A stretch of DNA of 64,000 nt from Dialister hominis. Lineage in GTDB: Bacteria; Bacillota; Negativicutes; Veillonellales; Dialisteraceae. Positions within the stretch are counted from its first letter, which is position 1; each line of letters begins with the position of its first letter. A program made the translations under genes and the position numbers. The notes under the pieces are model-generated. The model was not told where the DNA came from. It saw only the letters and a list, made by a program, of their open reading frames with translations, and searched no databases. Location: NCBI RefSeq assembly GCF_007164725.1, contig NZ_AP019697.1, positions 1,833,501-1,897,500 on the forward strand. The letters run 5' to 3'. Shown one piece after another: positions 3,223 to 14,513 of this stretch.

Positions 3223-4800
3223 ATGAAAAATAACAACACTAGCAATCATTTTACCGCAGAACAAGGCATTTTGCCAATGTTTCCCTCTGAGATTCTCAAT
3301 GTCGATGATCCTGTTTTAATGTATGACAGATTTATGGAGGAAATCGATCTTAAAAAGTACCTTCGTTACATACCGACGCGTGGCGCTGGCAGACCCAGGT
3401 ATAATCCCGTCAACATGCTGAAAACGATCATCTATGGTTTCGCAGAAGAAGGATATTGCTCTTTTAGAAAACTTGAAGATAATTGCAGGGTTAATATCAG
3501 ATATATGTACCTGATGAATTATGAAGCCCCATCCTATCGGACATTCTGTCATTTCGTGAAGGGCTTTCTTAAGTATTCTCTCAAGGATATCTTTTATTCA
3601 ATTACGAAAGAACTCTGCGGCAAACTCAACGTGGATTTGCAGCATATATATATTGACGGTTCCAAGTTTGAAGCGAACGCAAATAAATACAGCTGGGTAT
3701 GGAAGAAATCCGCTGAAAAATCCCGCTACAAGCATTTTGCCAAGATTACCAGCCTTTTTGAGTTACTCAATGATGATCTTAAGTATGACCATATGAGTGT
3801 AAACATCAATACAGAATACGCTCCGGACTATCTGCGTCTGGTATTGGATAAATTAAAAGAAATCTGGCAGATTGATGAGACGGCCTTTGTTCATGGAAGC
3901 GGGCATCGCAAGTCCGATCATCAACGCAAGTATGAGCAGCTTAAGGCATATACATCAAAACTTGAAGAATATGTTGAGAAGATACAGATATGCGGTACTT
4001 CCAGAAACAGTTATTCGAAGACCGATACGGATGCAACATTCATGCGAATCAAGTCGGACTACATGGGAAATGATCAGCTTCTGCCTGCATACAATGTCCA
4101 AATAGGTGTTGCCGATGAATTTATTGCCGTAATTGATGTTAACCAGTATCGTTCAGATATGGATTGCTTCGTACCGCTGATGGAGGAATTCCACGAAGTC
4201 TATGGGGCTTATCCTAAGTATCCTGTGGCAGATGCAGGATATGGATCTTTCAACAATTACATCTATTGCGAGCAGCACGGTATGGAAAAGTATATGAAAT
4301 TCCCCATGTACAAGAAAGAAACGAAAGACAAGAAATACCATACCAATCCGTTTCGGCCAATAAACTTTAGAGTTGATGAGAATGGAACCATCCGTTGTCC
4401 AAATGACAGGGCTTTCAAATTTATCTATAGACATCTGGTCAGAGGGAACTTATACGGCAGGCAGGAGGAAGTATTTGAATGCGAAGACTGCCAAGGATGC
4501 CCGCTGGCAGAGCAATGTAAAAAGACCCCGAAGAACAAAAGAATCTCATTGAGCAGAGAACGGAATAACATGTACCAGGAGGTTCAGGATAATCTGGAAA
4601 GCATCCATGGAGCCCTGCTAAGAATGAACCGGTCAATCCAGGCTGAAGGAACTTTTGGAATCATGAAACATGACAGATGGTACAAAAGAATCGTCAGAAA
4701 AGGGATAGATTCTGTAAAAGCCGAGTTATACCTGGTAGCACTTGGCTATAATTTAAGGAAATACATCACAAAAATAATGCGTATAAGGATTGCCGCCTAA
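3223..4800 (+). CDS. IS1182-family DDE transposase
   Basis: 525 residues, full length for IS1182 transposases. The N-terminal part (about residues 15-120: MFPSEIL, RGAGRPRYNP, TFCHFVK) is the DUF772-like domain. The DDE catalytic core shows YIDGSKFEANANK (first Asp), VADAGYGSFNNY (second Asp) and AEGTFGIMKHDRWY (Glu). A Cys cluster CEDCQGCPLAEQCKK (about residues 425-440) is usual for the family. No stop or frameshift is visible, so the enzyme could be active. No ribosome binding site precedes the ATG; initiation may be weak or leaderless. The protein probably recognises the GGGGMTGTGACAAAAT ends, which also bound repeat elements elsewhere in the window. Confidence 0.9.
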   Translation: MKNNNTSNHFTAEQGILPMFPSEILNVDDPVLMYDRFMEEIDLKKYLRYIPTRGAGRPRYNPVNMLKTIIYGFAEEGYCSFRKLEDNCRVNIRYMYLMNYEAPSYRTFCHFVKGFLKYSLKDIFYSITKELCGKLNVDLQHIYIDGSKFEANANKYSWVWKKSAEKSRYKHFAKITSLFELLNDDLKYDHMSVNINTEYAPDYLRLVLDKLKEIWQIDETAFVHGSGHRKSDHQRKYEQLKAYTSKLEEYVEKIQICGTSRNSYSKTDTDATFMRIKSDYMGNDQLLPAYNVQIGVADEFIAVIDVNQYRSDMDCFVPLMEEFHEVYGAYPKYPVADAGYGSFNNYIYCEQHGMEKYMKFPMYKKETKDKKYHTNPFRPINFRVDENGTIRCPNDRAFKFIYRHLVRGNLYGRQEEVFECEDCQGCPLAEQCKKTPKNKRISLSRERNNMYQEVQDNLESIHGALLRMNRSIQAEGTFGIMKHDRWYKRIVRKGIDSVKAELYLVALGYNLRKYITKIMRIRIAA

Positions 4801-4905
4801 GACAATATAATTAAAAGTCTTATGGGGGTAAGGGGGCTTACGCGCATTTTTACGTAAAAGGCTTACAGCAGAGCTAAAAATGATGAAATAAAGACGCAAA
4901 AAAGA

Positions 4906-4951
4906 GGCTGCAACAAAATGATTAACCATTTTGTCACAGCCCCTTTTTTTC
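4906..4951. terminator. Right-end hairpin of the IS element, likely terminator
   Basis: GGCTGCAACAAAATG (4906-4920) pairs with CATTTTGTCACAGCC (4927-4941), followed by a run of T. It also lies directly downstream of the minus-strand biotin synthase gene that ends at 4956, but the U tract favours plus-strand termination. Confidence 0.6.
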
Positions 4952-4955
4952 CCAT

Positions 4956-5939
4956 TTAGAGGACGCGGCCTAGGTCGCGTGCCATTTGTTTGTCCTTTTC
5001 CGGGGGACGGCCGGCGATGGTGAGGTAGCCTCCTATCATGGCGCCATTGAGGCCGGCGGCGAGTGCGAAGGACTGCATGTCGCGGAGGCCTCCTTCTCTT
5101 CCTGCGCATACGCGGATGATGGCGTGGGGCAGGATGAAGCGGTAGACGGCGAAGTAGCGGAGGATTTCAAGCGGCTGCGGCGGCTTGGTTTCTCCCATCG
5201 GGGTGCCCGGGATCGGGTTGAAGATGTTTAAGGGGACGGAGCGGATGTCTCTTTCCTTCAGGGCGAAGGCCATGTCGAGGCGGTCCTTTTCCGTTTCTCC
5301 CAGGCCGAAGATGCCTCCGGAGCAGACGTCGAGTCCTGCGGCATGGATGCGGCGGATGTGGTTCATTTTCTCGTCATAGGTATGCGTGGTGCATATTTCG
5401 GAGAAATAATCTCTCGACGTTTCCAGGTTGCAGTGGATTCTTTCGCAGCCTGCTTCCTTGAGTCTCTTCAGCTGTTCGTCGGTAAGGAGCCCCAGTGAGC
5501 AGCAGACGGAAAGTCCGGTGTGCTGTGTCACGAGGCGTACTGTTTCGACGATGGATTCGAATTGTTTGGGATCGGTCTGGCCTCTCCCGCTGGTGACGAT
5601 GCCGAATCGTTCGGCGCCATAGGCTTCTGCCTGACGGGCTTCTTTGAGAAGTTCTTCAGGACGGCGGAGCGGATACTCCTTGACGCCTGTGTTGTACCAG
5701 CCTGACTGCGCGCAGAAGCGGCAGTTTTCGCTGCAGCGTCCGCTTCTTGCGTTGACGTCGCTGCAGAAGTGCATCTCATCTCCGCAGAAAGTGCGGCGGA
5801 TGCGGTCGGCGGAGGCTATGAGGAAATAGGGTTCGCGCTTCCCGCAGTCGAGAAGTTTCTCCGCCATTTCCCTTGTTATTTCTCCGCCTTCCAGGACTTT
5901 GTCCATATACTCGGTAATGAGCGCTATATCCTGATTCAT
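4956..5939 (-). CDS. bioB: Biotin synthase family radical SAM protein, copy 1
   Basis: 327 residues from the ATG at 5939, chosen because GGAGGG lies 3 bases upstream; an in-frame ATG at 5951 has no such site. BioB converts dethiobiotin to biotin by sulfur insertion with two Fe-S clusters. Radical SAM cysteines are C69, C73 and C76 in GRCSENCRFCAQS. Of the classical [2Fe-2S] ligands, the position of E. coli C97 is G113, while C128 and C188 equivalents are C146/C147 and C206. Extra cysteines C59, C170 (IHCNLE) and C183 (EICTTHT) are shared with the two neighbouring paralogues. This is the most divergent of the three copies. A terminator separates it from copy 2, so it may have its own promoter. 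A different sulfur-insertion substrate cannot be excluded. Confidence 0.8.
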   Translation of the reverse strand: MNQDIALITEYMDKVLEGGEITREMAEKLLDCGKREPYFLIASADRIRRTFCGDEMHFCSDVNARSGRCSENCRFCAQSGWYNTGVKEYPLRRPEELLKEARQAEAYGAERFGIVTSGRGQTDPKQFESIVETVRLVTQHTGLSVCCSLGLLTDEQLKRLKEAGCERIHCNLETSRDYFSEICTTHTYDEKMNHIRRIHAAGLDVCSGGIFGLGETEKDRLDMAFALKERDIRSVPLNIFNPIPGTPMGETKPPQPLEILRYFAVYRFILPHAIIRVCAGREGGLRDMQSFALAAGLNGAMIGGYLTIAGRPPEKDKQMARDLGRVL

Positions 5940-5975
5940 TGTCCCTCCCATTGGTTCTTCCCGGTATGATCAAGG

Positions 5976-6001
5976 AAAAAGGCACGCCCTGCGGCATGCC
6001 T
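5976..6001 (-). terminator. Terminator between bioB copies 2 and 1
   Basis: On the minus strand AGGCATGCC and GGGCGTGCC pair across a 3-4 base loop and are followed by TTTTT. It sits 8 bases after the copy 2 stop codon. Confidence 0.75.
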
Positions 6002-6008
6002 CTTCCAC

Positions 6009-7010
6009 TTACTGTACGTTCGGCATGGTTCTTGTACGACCGAGGTCGCGCAGCATGGTGAGATCATCATGCGGGTCAGATCCCTTGCTGGTGAGGTAGT
6101 TGCCGATCATGACGCCATTCATTCCGCCTGCCAGAGCCATGGACTGCAGGCTTCTTAAGTTCAGCTGGCGGCCGCCTGCTGTACGGATCTGTGCCTTTGG
6201 AAGCACGAAGCGGAACATAGCGAATGAACGGAGGATTTCCAATGGAGCCAGAGGCTCGTTGTGTTCATAAGGGGTTCCCGGAATCGGGTTCAGCACGTTG
6301 AGCGGAATCGCATCAATGTGCAGTTTCTTTAGATGGAAAGCCATCTCGACTCTCTGGTCGAGGGTTTCGCCCAGACCGAGGATGCCGCCGCAGCAGACGC
6401 GGATGCCGGCTTTCTGAGCACGCTGGATGTTCTCAGCTTTTTCCTCGGCGGTATGTGTGGTGCAGACTTCCTGGAAGAAGGAAGGTGCGGATTCAATGTT
6501 GCAGTGAAGACGGTTTACGCCGGCTTCACTGAGCTGGTATGCCTGTTCCTGTGTGAGGAAACCAAGCGAGCAGCAGACTTCGATGCCGATTTCCGTGCGG
6601 ATACGGCGGATGAGATGCAGAATTTCTGCGAAGTCTTTCGGATTTCTCTGATCCCGGCCTGCGGTAACGATATCGAAGCGGGCAGCGCCTGCTTCTTTCG
6701 CTTTCTGGGCTGCTTTCATGACTTCTTCTTCCGGCAGGAAGGTGTAATTGTCTATGCCTGTGTCGTAACGGGCAGACTGGGCGCAGAACTTGCAGTCTTC
6801 CTGGCAGCGTCCGCTTCTTGCATTGACGATGGCGCAGAGGTCGACGCTTCTGCCGGAGAATTTCTGACGGATCTTATCAGCGCATGCCAGAAGAAGCATG
6901 GTGTCTTCGTCTGTCGCACGAATCAGTGCTTTTGCTTCTTCTTCGGTGATTTCTCCGCCGTCCAGAATTCTGTCTGTAATTTTTAAAATCTGTTCACAAC
7001 CGCTTTCCAT
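6009..7010 (-). CDS. bioB: Biotin synthase family radical SAM protein, copy 2
   Basis: 333 residues from the ATG at 7010, which has AAGGAG 9 bases upstream; the longer in-frame start at 7037 lacks a site. The residue numbering aligns without gaps with copies 1 and 3 through the core: radical SAM C69/C73/C76 (GRCQEDCKFCAQS), C59, C146/C147 (EVCCSLG), C170 (LHCNIE), C183 (EVCTTHT) and C206 (VCCGGILG). The classical C97 position is D113. IRTAGGRQLNLRSLQ keeps the Arg region used by BioB near its auxiliary cluster. Closest to copy 3. It lies 121 bases downstream of copy 3, with palindromes in the gap. Confidence 0.8.
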   Translation of the reverse strand: MESGCEQILKITDRILDGGEITEEEAKALIRATDEDTMLLLACADKIRQKFSGRSVDLCAIVNARSGRCQEDCKFCAQSARYDTGIDNYTFLPEEEVMKAAQKAKEAGAARFDIVTAGRDQRNPKDFAEILHLIRRIRTEIGIEVCCSLGFLTQEQAYQLSEAGVNRLHCNIESAPSFFQEVCTTHTAEEKAENIQRAQKAGIRVCCGGILGLGETLDQRVEMAFHLKKLHIDAIPLNVLNPIPGTPYEHNEPLAPLEILRSFAMFRFVLPKAQIRTAGGRQLNLRSLQSMALAGGMNGVMIGNYLTSKGSDPHDDLTMLRDLGRTRTMPNVQ

Positions 7011-7037
7011 GAATGACCACTCCTTAAACGAATACAT

Positions 7038-7056
7038 CCTGTTGTATAGTAACAGG
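7038..7056. promoter_or_regulatory. Palindrome upstream of bioB copy 2
   Basis: CCTGTT and AACAGG form a 6 bp inverted repeat around an AT-rich centre that includes TATAGT. Two further inverted repeats occupy 7075-7125. This could be an operator or an intercistronic RNA hairpin; the sequence cannot decide. Confidence 0.35.
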
Positions 7057-7131
7057 GTCTCTCCTTGGTGAAACCTTACGCGTCAAATGCGTAATTCTGA
7101 CCTCTCGGAAATCGGGAAATTTCCGTGAGGC

Positions 7132-8130
7132 TTAAAGCTGTGGCTGGGTTCTGCTTCTTCCCAGATCGTTGACCATGGTCAGGTCTTCTCTCGGATTTCT
7201 ACCGCCGGTGGTCAGATAACCGCCGACCATGATGCCGTTCAGGCCGCCCGAGAGAGCATGTGCCTGGAGGCTGCGAAGATTGACTTCACGTCCGCCTGCT
7301 GTGCGGATGAGCGCTTTTGGAAGTACGAAGCGGAATACTGCAAATGTACGGAGCACTTCCAGCGGAGCCAGACGTTCGTTCGTGTAGAACGGTGTCCCTT
7401 CGACAGGGTTGAGGATATTCAACGGAACAGAGTCGATGTGGAGCTTTTTCAGATGGAATGCCATTTCCACACGCTGGTCGAGGTCTTCGCCCAGTCCGAT
7501 GATGCCGCCCGAGCATACGCGGATGCCTGCCTTCTGCGCTGTCTGGATGATGTCTTCCTTATCTTCCATCGTGTGCGTGGTGCAGATTTCCGGGAAATAC
7601 GACGGTGATGTTTCGATGTTGCAGTGGATTCTTGTGATGCCTGCTTCGCGAAGACGGATGGCCTGTTCCTCAGTGATGAGGCCCAGGGAGCAGCAGACTT
7701 CAATGCCCACCTGATCGTGAATCTTCTTCACGACATCGATGATTTCCTCGAATTCATTCGGATTATCCTGATTTCTTCCGCTCGTTACCAGAGAGAAACG
7801 GACAGCGCCCGCATCCTTGGCTTTCTTGGCAGCGGCCAGAATCTGGTCCTCCGGCAAAAGACGGTAAGTCGTAGCTCCCGTCCTGTAATGACCGGACTGC
7901 GCGCAGAATTTGCAGTCCTCCTGGCAGTGTCCGCTGCGCGCATTGATGATGGCGCAGAAGTCAACAGCATTGCCGTTGTACTTCTGACGGATCTTATCTG
8001 CCATAGCCAGAAGCAGCATGGTATCTTCATCCTTTGTACGGATCAGACGGCCTGCTTCTTCTCTAGTGATCTCTCCCCCGTCCAACACTTTGTTGGCCAG
8101 GCGGATGATTTCCTCACAAGAGCTTTCCAT
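7132..8130 (-). CDS. bioB: Biotin synthase family radical SAM protein, copy 3 (promoter-proximal)
   Basis: 332 residues from the ATG at 8130, with GGGAGGA 8 bases upstream; the in-frame extension to 8214 has no homology. Core motifs are C69/C73/C76 in GHCQEDCKFCAQS, S113 in place of the classical C97, then C146/C147, C170, C183 and C206 as in the other copies. The C-terminus (IRTAGGREVNLRSLQ, GGYLTTGGRNP) resembles Firmicute BioB. It is first in a run of three same-strand paralogues and has a good promoter. No bioA, bioD, bioF or birA gene is in the window, so biotin synthesis itself is not proven by context. Confidence 0.82.
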   Translation of the reverse strand: MESSCEEIIRLANKVLDGGEITREEAGRLIRTKDEDTMLLLAMADKIRQKYNGNAVDFCAIINARSGHCQEDCKFCAQSGHYRTGATTYRLLPEDQILAAAKKAKDAGAVRFSLVTSGRNQDNPNEFEEIIDVVKKIHDQVGIEVCCSLGLITEEQAIRLREAGITRIHCNIETSPSYFPEICTTHTMEDKEDIIQTAQKAGIRVCSGGIIGLGEDLDQRVEMAFHLKKLHIDSVPLNILNPVEGTPFYTNERLAPLEVLRTFAVFRFVLPKALIRTAGGREVNLRSLQAHALSGGLNGIMVGGYLTTGGRNPREDLTMVNDLGRSRTQPQL

Positions 8131-8224: not shown

Positions 8225-8254
8225 AGTATATTCTATAAACGGTTTATTTGTCAA
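8225..8254 (-). promoter_or_regulatory. Promoter of the bioB run
   Basis: On the minus strand TTGACA (8249-8254) and TATACT (8225-8230), spacer 18. The -35 lies in TTGACAA (8248-8254), which forms a 7 bp inverted repeat with TTGTCAA (complement of 8284-8290) across 29 bases. The half sites resemble BirA half sites, but the spacing is about twice the usual one, so BirA control is only a guess. Confidence 0.55.
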
Positions 8255-8373
8255 TTTCAGTATTTGCTTCAGTTCACAATAGGTTGACAAAGTAGACATT
8301 TAATCAAGCGTCTGGAATACACTGTGAAATCTTCGGTTTTATCGAAGGAAATGGGACATAGCTCCATAAAAAT

Positions 8374-9145: not shown

Positions 9146-9313
9146 AAAATTTTTGACTTTTATTTTTCGATTTTTGAAAGTCCGCATATTTACGGAACAT
9201 TCACGTTCTAAACTTATTGATTTTTTGACTTTTATCTTGTCAAAGTTAGCCATAAAGCACCATTCATTTTTCTTTTGAAAAGGAGAAATTGCATCAAAAA
9301 GATAAAAGAAGAA

Positions 9314-9564
9314 GCTGTGGCAAAATGTACAATCATTTTGCCACAACCCCTTCTTTGTGTTGATATAGCTGCCCAGAGAATTAATCTAACATAGATATAC
9401 AATCTCTACAATCTAAAAACCTCAAAACCTCGCTACGCTCGTGGAACTACTGTATTCCCCGGCTTCGCCGGGACCTTCTCCTTCGGAGCAAGGTTAACAC
9501 CCTTAAACCGAACTTCGTTCGAGAAAAGGAGAAAGAGCGTCTTGGCGGATTTTGCCACAGCCCC
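9314..9564 (+). repeat. Terminal-inverted-repeat element, copy A
   Basis: About 250 bp, starting with GCTGTGGCAAAATG (followed by its own complement, forming a hairpin at 9314-9347) and ending with ATTTTGCCACAGCCCC. The interior carries CCTCGCTACGCTCG, a CCTTCTCCTTCGGAGCAAGG hairpin, TTAACACCCTTAAACCG and ACTTCGTTCGAGAAAAGG, all shared in the same order with copy B (59.0-59.26 kb) and copy C (split around 19.7/21.6 kb). No gene inside. Confidence 0.8.
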
Positions 9565-12112: not shown

Positions 12113-13750
12113 TCAATCTAATTCTTCTGCCGCTTTGCGGACAGCTTCAAATACTTCATGGAAGGACGCTTCATTTTCTTCCGCCAGTGCTTTCACGGAT
12201 TCGTATTCCGGATAGTTGCGGACGGTATCGGAAAATGTGACCTGCTTCACAAGTGCCTGCCCGAAAGGTGTTTCGACTTCCCTTTCTTCGCGCTTCAGGA
12301 TGACGCGCATGACGCTTGGAAATTCGCGGACGCCGATGGTCGTCGTTTCGCGAAAAATGATGTCTTCCAGTGTTTCACGGATTTCCTTCTTGCAGATAAC
12401 GGTCAGTTCCCATGCAGGACGGTTCTTCTTCATGAATACCGGCGCATAGTGGACGTCGAGCGCCCCTGCCTGCATCAGCTTTTCAAGGGTGTAGCCCAGG
12501 ACTTCGCCCGAGCAGTCGTCGATGTCGGTTTCAATCTTCAGGACTTCGTCTCTTTCTCCTTCTCCCTGATTGTCGGAAACGAGGAGTGCGCGGAGAATGC
12601 CGGCTCTTTCGGTGTAAGCGCGTTTGCCTGCGCCAAGGCCGATGCGTTCGATGCGGAAAAGGGACGGAAGCGTGTGGGATGTAGCCAGTGCGCATGCAAT
12701 CGCAGCACCAGTCGGGGTGACGAATTCCCCTGTGGCATCCATGATTTCAAGCGGCATGCCGCAGGCAGTCACGATGTTCAGCGTAGCTGGCACCGGTACG
12801 GGCAGGCGGCCATGCTGGCAGCGGACAGTGCCTGTGCCTTCGGAAAGCTTTGGCACGATGACTTCGGAAATGCCAAGGCTGTCGAAGCAGACGGCAGCGG
12901 AAATGATATCCACGATGGAATCGGCAGCGCCGACTTCGTGGAAGTGGACCTCATCGATCGGAAGGTTGTGTGCTTTCGCTTCTGCTTCCGCAATGAGCAT
13001 GAAAATCTTCTTTGCGATTTCACGGGCATGATCCGTCATGGAAGCGCCGTCAATGACCGCCATGACATCCGCCAGATTGCGGTGTTCATGATGGTGGTGA
13101 TGGCCATGAACGTGGTCATGATCATGATAATGGCCCTCTTCGCCATGGAAATGCGGGCAGTGATGTTCTTCATCATGGTGATGATGATGGTGTCCTTCCT
13201 CGCCATGGAAGTGCGGGCAATGGTGTTCTTCCTCATCATGATGGTGGTGATGATGATGTTCTTCACCGTCTTCATGGCAGTGGCAGTGGTGCTCGCCTTC
13301 TTCGTCATGGTGATGATGATGTTCGCCGTCTTCATGGCAGTGGCAATGATGTTCGCCTTCTTCGTCATGATGATGATGATGTTCGCCTTCTTCGTCATAA
13401 TGATGATGATGTTCGCCTTCTTCGTCATGATGATGATGTTGTTCGCCTTCTTCGTCGTGATGGTGATGATGTTCTTCCGGGACATCGGAAGAAACGACCG
13501 GATCAGGGCCGTAGAGGTATGCCATGTCATGGTCGTGGTTTTCATGTTCTGCATCGAGGATGACATTGAAGTCGCAACAGTTGATGCCGGATTTCTGTAC
13601 GCGGGAGATTTCTGTCTTGAAGCCCTTCACCGGAAGGGAAGCGAGTGCTGCTTCCAGTGCTTTCTGGTCAGCGCCCAAATCAAGCATGGCAGCAACGAAC
13701 ATATCTCCGCTGATGCCGGAACCGGTTTCCAGATATAATTTTTTACTCAC
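12113..13750 (-). CDS. larC: LarC, nickel-pincer cofactor metal insertion protein, with long His-rich insert
   Basis: 545 residues from a GTG start at 13750 (AAAGGGG 9 bases upstream), overlapping the larB end by 8 bases; the longer ATG frame runs into larB and is unlikely. LarC inserts nickel into the pincer nucleotide cofactor using CTP. The N-terminal domain begins LYLETGSGISGDMFVAAML. Residues about 71-222 are an exceptional His/Asp/Glu-rich stretch built from decapeptides such as EGEHHHHHDE and EGEHHCHCHE plus two HHCPHFHGEEGH units. The conserved core resumes at NLADVMAVID and continues through VHFHEVGAADSIVDII. It is one continuous frame, unlike species where larC needs a programmed frameshift. 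The insert probably stores or buffers nickel or zinc (inference). Confidence 0.9.
   Translation of the reverse strand: MSKKLYLETGSGISGDMFVAAMLDLGADQKALEAALASLPVKGFKTEISRVQKSGINCCDFNVILDAEHENHDHDMAYLYGPDPVVSSDVPEEHHHHHDEEGEQHHHHDEEGEHHHHYDEEGEHHHHHDEEGEHHCHCHEDGEHHHHHDEEGEHHCHCHEDGEEHHHHHHHDEEEHHCPHFHGEEGHHHHHHDEEHHCPHFHGEEGHYHDHDHVHGHHHHHEHRNLADVMAVIDGASMTDHAREIAKKIFMLIAEAEAKAHNLPIDEVHFHEVGAADSIVDIISAAVCFDSLGISEVIVPKLSEGTGTVRCQHGRLPVPVPATLNIVTACGMPLEIMDATGEFVTPTGAAIACALATSHTLPSLFRIERIGLGAGKRAYTERAGILRALLVSDNQGEGERDEVLKIETDIDDCSGEVLGYTLEKLMQAGALDVHYAPVFMKKNRPAWELTVICKKEIRETLEDIIFRETTTIGVREFPSVMRVILKREEREVETPFGQALVKQVTFSDTVRNYPEYESVKALAEENEASFHEVFEAVRKAAEELD
13136..13480 (-). repeat. In-frame 30 bp tandem repeats encoding the LarC His-rich decapeptides
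   Basis: About eight 30-base units (codons for D/E-E-G-E followed by four to six His or Cys) in tandem, followed by two longer Cys-Pro-His units. The exact multiple-of-three period keeps the frame, so length polymorphism between strains is likely. Confidence 0.85.
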
Positions 13751-14513
13751 TGCTTTTTCCCCTTTCTGCAAGCCTGTTAATTTGGGTCGCCACGTAGCCG
13801 GCACCAAATCCATTATCAATATTGACTGTGACGATGCCGTTCGCGCAGGAATTGATCATCGTCAGAAGCGCCGAAAGGCCGTGGAAGCTGGCGCCATAGC
13901 CGACCGATGTCGGAACGGCGATGACGGGATTCTTCACGAGGCCTCCGATGACAGAAGCAAGAGCCCCTTCCATCCCGGCGACGGCGACGACGCAGTTCGC
14001 GCTCCTGACCAGGGTTTCCTTGGAAAGGATCCTGTGGATGCCGCTCACGCCCACGTCGTAAATGCGCTCGACATGCGTGCCGAAGTATTCAGCCGTCTGG
14101 GCCGCTTCTTCGGCGACGGAAATGTCCGCCGTGCCGCCTGTGCAGACCGCGACGCAGCCGATGCGTTTCTTTCCTTCTTTTTCCTTCTTCAGGATATGGG
14201 AGACGGGGTCATAGGAAATGTCGGGGATCCTCTCTTTCACGAGTTCATACTGGTGGGAAGAAGCACGCGTCCCGAAGACTTCCCCGTCCAGCTCATAGAG
14301 CTTCTGGAAAATGTCTGCTATGAACTTGTCGGACTTTCCCTGGCAGTATACGACCTCGGCAAAGCCGGACCTTTCTCTTCTGTCCGTGTCGAGCTTTGCA
14401 TATCCCATTTCCTCATACGAACGCGAAGCAGGGTTGGCGCGGAGCAGCTCTTCGGCCGCTGCCGTATCCATCGTCCCCTTCTTCACTTCTTCGAGTATTT
14501 CCCTGACATCCAT
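13743..14513 (-). CDS. larB: LarB, pyridinium-3,5-biscarboxylate mononucleotide synthase
   Basis: 256 residues, usual LarB length. LarB carboxylates and hydrolyses NaAD in the first step of nickel-pincer nucleotide synthesis and resembles PurE. Visible family features are the N-terminal helical region, the segment IGCVAVCTGGTADISVAEEAA (about residues 140-160), the following VGVSGIHRIL, and the PurE-like tail with VAGMEGALASVIGGL and VPTSVGYGASFHGL. It lies between larE (15 bases upstream) and larC (8 base overlap) in one minus-strand operon. Confidence 0.92.
   Translation of the reverse strand: MDVREILEEVKKGTMDTAAAEELLRANPASRSYEEMGYAKLDTDRRERSGFAEVVYCQGKSDKFIADIFQKLYELDGEVFGTRASSHQYELVKERIPDISYDPVSHILKKEKEGKKRIGCVAVCTGGTADISVAEEAAQTAEYFGTHVERIYDVGVSGIHRILSKETLVRSANCVVAVAGMEGALASVIGGLVKNPVIAVPTSVGYGASFHGLSALLTMINSCANGIVTVNIDNGFGAGYVATQINRLAERGKSSE

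Follow-up and report, generated by a model that had tools for sequence, protein, structure and literature searches.

Three complete biotin synthase (BioB) open reading frames lie in tandem on the minus strand of the 64,000-nt stretch of DNA from the gut bacterium Dialister hominis analysed here (the window), and are transcribed in the order c3, c2, c1. All three encode type II biotin synthases and all three are under purifying selection, and their phylogeny points to old copies, not recent duplicates. We consider it probable, with a fair margin of doubt, that they form an operon in which c3 would be the main biotin synthase and c1 and c2 would be specialised partners in the same pathway. The three genes are:

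7132..8130, minus strand: bioB copy c3 (332 aa), which opens the probable operon; 405 bits against TIGR00433, and placed by trees
6009..7010, minus strand: bioB copy c2 (333 aa); 402 bits against TIGR00433, and placed by trees
4956..5939, minus strand: bioB copy c1, the most diverged of the three (327 aa when counted from the ATG at 5939); 382 bits against TIGR00433

Each protein scores more than 150 bits over the curated 225-bit cut-off of the NCBIfam bioB model TIGR00433, and the frames are intact, in agreement with a sequence-only reading of this DNA that had described three BioB-like proteins on one strand. The c1 frame spans 4956–5951, with the ATG at 5939, preceded by GGGAGGGACA, as the preferred start codon. 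Pairwise identity is 66% for c2 and c3, 51% for c1 and c3 and 50% for c1 and c2, and identity to the Veillonella parvula enzyme in PDB 8vdw falls from 67.5% for c3 through 62.9% for c2 to 49.8% for c1; c3 is 85% identical to that of D. succinatiphilus, the nearest named relative. The BioB identity that had been proposed also held in phylogenetic and family placement, in which none of the three is grouped with HydE or PylB. The window copies have the broad radical-SAM fold in common with these two families, but their scores are far below the cut-offs (33–55 bits where reported against 254.6 for the HydE model, and 85–100 bits against 348.2 for PylB). The highest scores were 40 bits for the LipS1 model (cut-off 230) and 58 bits for LipS2 (cut-off 270).

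The type II biotin synthases were reportedly published by Lachowicz in 2024, and we take PDB 8vdw (V. parvula) and 8vcw (B. obeum) to be the enzymes of that study. The predicted structure of c1 (pLDDT 90.8) has its best structural match in 8vdw (TM 0.95), followed by 8vcw and E. coli BioB (1r30), with HydE and PylB behind these. An earlier suggestion that the copies are type II enzymes is upheld: among solved structures, the biotin synthases of V. parvula and B. obeum are the nearest to them, and the four type II cysteines are present. In the alignment, the cysteines fall where they had been listed in c2 and c3 numbering, with c1 numbering shifted by +4, so that the radical-SAM CxxxCxxC motif is C69/C73/C76 in c2 and c3 and C73/C77/C80 in c1. 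The alignment also bears out the absence of an equivalent of E. coli C97, a ligand of the [2Fe–2S] cluster in type I enzymes; position 113 is G, D or S across the three copies, different in each and fixed within each orthologue group. C59, C146, C183 and C206 are present in c1, c2 and c3 and in 104 of 104 aligned type II rows, 8vdw and 8vcw included, as are the CxxxCxxC cysteines and R276 (E. coli R260).

These four cysteines (c3 numbering) are most likely the ligands of the auxiliary cluster. The sequence-only reading had raised C146, C170, C183 and C206 as a set that might converge on one cluster site, and had pointed to C170 and C183 as shared extra cysteines. C183 survives on both counts, being invariant in type II rows and fitting the cluster set, and C59, which had been listed without interpretation, becomes the fourth candidate. 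C170 does not: it is a cysteine in only 18 rows, of which 16 come from the window's own family, is mostly H, S, A or N in relatives, and aligns with E. coli H152. Because of this poor conservation and the alignment with H152, C170 is unlikely to be a ligand and was rejected as one. A type II class of biotin synthases from anaerobes, with a [4Fe–5S] cluster, has been described (PMC11099021, PMC11138216). Cysteine conservation and similarity to 8vdw predict a [4Fe–5S] auxiliary cluster in the window copies as well.

The organization of the locus suggests that the genes are expressed together. The elements around and between them, in the direction of transcription, are:

8272..8290, minus strand: operator-like block TTGTCAACCTATTGTGAAC, upstream of the −35 element; a similar block occurs in relatives
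8225..8254, minus strand: sigma-70-type promoter TTGACA-18-TATACT, aligned with the bioB upstream regions of six relatives
7011..7131, minus strand: moderately stable RNA structure between c3 and c2 (z −2.8), partly conserved in D. succinatiphilus
5975..6006, minus strand: terminator-like or attenuator-like 14-bp hairpin with a U-tract, in the c2–c1 gap (z −3.7)
4902..4945, minus strand: strong intrinsic terminator after c1 (z −7.9)

The promoter is the sole promoter-like site detected upstream of the three genes. With this one promoter before c3 and a strong terminator after c1, the genes probably constitute an operon, and a single c3–c2–c1 transcript would be expected. Separate hairpins had been noted in both gaps; that between c2 and c1 is strong (minimum free energy of −29.6 kcal/mol over a 73-nt stretch), whereas the gap between c3 and c2 holds only the weaker structure. 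The c2–c1 hairpin may lower c1 expression, or may separate c1 from the transcript; in D. succinatiphilus the c2–c1 gap is about 850 bp. An Rfam search of the window returned nothing at gathering thresholds, and the intergenic structures are thus not explained by a known riboswitch. The operator-like block TTGTCAACCTATTGTGAAC resembles two BirA half-sites and could be an operator. With up to two mismatches allowed it has no second match in the genome, hence in this form is not common to the other bio promoters of the genome, and at three mismatches the genome matches no more often than a reversed control. We therefore rejected it as a genome-wide biotin box, and control by BirA and biotin is only suggested, because the block does not recur. 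Different stress conditions had been offered as one reason for keeping three copies; in such a case biotin would be made at different levels of iron, sulfide or oxygen by enzymes whose auxiliary clusters differ in stability. The copy-specific, orthologue-fixed residue at the C97 position would agree with this, but the copies appear to stand under one promoter and separate regulation was not found, and we regard this explanation as unlikely.

Other features were seen in the window. Similar terminator-like palindromes at 4894–4960 and 9294–9360 are inverted copies (73% complementary), perhaps of a dispersed repeat. A complete DDE transposase gene of an insertion sequence lies just downstream of c1 (3223–4800, plus strand). 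Further away, at 12113–13819 on the minus strand, a LarC-like nickel insertion protein with a long histidine-rich stretch is encoded; its neighbours are a PP-loop gene and an AIR carboxylase-like gene (probably larE and larB, respectively).

When the window genes are compared with those of D. succinatiphilus, dN/dS comes to about 0.11 for c1, 0.08 for c2 and 0.08 for c3, with dS near saturation. Among 61 genomes of the order, G000, G005 and G007 alone have three BioB copies over the cut-off, G011, a genome of another genus, has two, and the remaining positive genomes have one each (n = 54). In the trees, c3 clusters with BioBs from related single-copy genera of the same family. The c2 proteins of the window and D. 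succinatiphilus form one group with the first G011 copy (support 100/100), and the c1 proteins form another, long-branched group with the second G011 copy (100/100); the family's BioBs together make one clade of moderate support (86/89). The c2-type and c1-type genes of G011 are paired among unrelated neighbours, and c3 is not alongside; at 75% completeness, this genome may carry c3 elsewhere. The tree topology thus places the duplications before the split of the two genera.

Moreover, the diverged copies carry fixed changes at columns that are at least 95% conserved in single-copy type II enzymes (here termed invariant, in c3 numbering). Every c1-type copy is altered at six such positions, namely 57, 61, 240, 278, 284 and 308 (D57H, I61D, L240F, A278C and T308I, with N284 also changed), and every c2-type copy has S234A, plus D at the C97 position 113. 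D57H and I61D flank C59 in c1; in the alignment, A278 corresponds to E. coli S262, two residues past R260, and T308 corresponds to E. coli T293, which we take to be located at the substrate tail in the E. coli structure. Old, selected and different around their predicted active sites, c1 and c2 do not look like spare copies. This bears on the idea that three equivalent low-turnover enzymes are kept to raise output. The genes are in tandem on one strand, all are under purifying selection, and BioB turnover is known to be low, with less than one turnover per monomer in some studies; on the other side, c1 is only about 50% identical to c2 and c3, the six changes and S234A are fixed in their respective types, and 54 other genomes of the order are single-copy. 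As the duplications predate the split of the two genera and the c1 changes are fixed at otherwise invariant sites, simple dosage is the least consistent of the three reasons for retention that had been put forward, and we judge it quite unlikely.

The long branch of c1, together with the changes close to its predicted active site, would also be compatible with a change of substrate, in which c1, and perhaps c2, inserts sulfur into another small molecule and is no longer a biotin synthase. The changes on both sides of C59, at the T293 position and just past the conserved arginine could be read in this way. Against this, c1 lies in tandem with other bioB genes and clears the bioB cut-off by a wide margin, and we hold a change of substrate to be improbable. 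Lipoyl synthesis by c1 is disfavoured, as the lipoyl synthase model TIGR00510 gave no match above its cut-off in the window's family and c1 reaches only 34 bits for LipS1 and 58 bits for LipS2.

The genome has the rest of the pathway. A family search found bioF, bioD and three bioY genes, and bioA and bioW, identified by eye from the sequence, adjoin these in the clusters bioY–bioD–bioA and bioW–bioF. With bioW, bioF, bioA and bioD all encoded, dethiobiotin should be made in the cell. In the model that we favour, c3 would be the main enzyme converting dethiobiotin to biotin. Each protein would most likely hold a radical-SAM cluster, presumably [4Fe–4S], on C69/C73/C76 and a sulfur-donating auxiliary cluster on C59, C146, C183 and C206. 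As older, selected duplicates that retain both cluster sites, c2 and c1 would have stayed in the pathway and become specialised through residues beside the auxiliary-cluster cysteines and at the T293-equivalent position, probably still acting on dethiobiotin or its thiol intermediate.

A class-wide search with c1 uncovered, in many families, an ancient pair of adjacent type II BioBs that is distinct from the window set and ordered A then B; each of the two types is monophyletic (support 100/99 for A and 100/100 for B). Two adjacent BioBs, the upstream one reduced to a fragment in G144, were present in 30 of 32 genomes chosen for a suggested two or more copies in the c1 search, a sample that is uninformative on overall frequency. 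The A/B pair (loci L096, L098–L106, L109, L111–L115, L118, L163 and L166–L173) is the sole BioB over the cut-off in 24 of the 30, and bioD is found in 23 of these 24. In all loci classed by residue, A has S113/N148/A169/F308 and B has C113/S148/H169/T308; B thus carries the type I C97 cysteine on top of the type II set. That T308 is altered in c1, c2 and A alike is suggestive only, and the c2-type copy of G011 retains T. B stands without a whole A alongside at L107 (G364), L110 (G367), L157 (G376) and L147 (G144), where the upstream A is a fragment, and A without B was seen at none of the loci read. L144 (G110) holds another tandem pair, apparently an independent duplication, whose type II BioBs are 8vcw-like. 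The extra single BioB of G151 (L162), which lies outside the 104 aligned rows, has S at position 146; this genome also has an A/B pair.

These pairs raise the prospect that paralogues split the reaction, with c3 (or B) and a diverged c1 (or A) either joined in a mixed dimer or acting one after the other. We give such a split a low probability. If true, one copy would serve the first C–S bond and another the second, as LipS1 and LipS2 do for lipoate, and this class would have seen split biotin synthases arise on at least two occasions.

Whatever the division of labour, the paralogue sets bear on the long-standing question of how the sulfur inserted by biotin synthase is supplied and renewed. 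Together, c3/c2/c1 and A/B are natural variants that have the cluster cysteines in common and differ in fixed residues beside them, and could reveal the residues on which cluster type, stability and turnover depend. The enzyme type is known; a partial literature search found no published description of such ancient, divergent paralogue sets in tandem.

Among known systems, the type II enzymes of V. parvula (8vdw) and B. obeum (8vcw) have in common with the window copies the fold, the radical-SAM motif, C59/C146/C183/C206 and the conserved arginine. These relatives are usually single-copy, whereas the window has three copies, with c1 and c2 altered at positions invariant in single-copy enzymes. 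Type I E. coli BioB (1r30) is 32–35% identical and has the fold, CxxxCxxC and the equivalents of C128, C188 and R260 in common with the window copies, but its C97 has no equivalent in them, and it has S and I where they have C59 and C183. LipS1 and LipS2, both BioB-like, jointly carry out a single task of inserting two sulfurs (PMC9585515), and are a precedent for paralogues dividing labour, although their auxiliary cluster ligands differ and the window copies score far under the LipS cut-offs.
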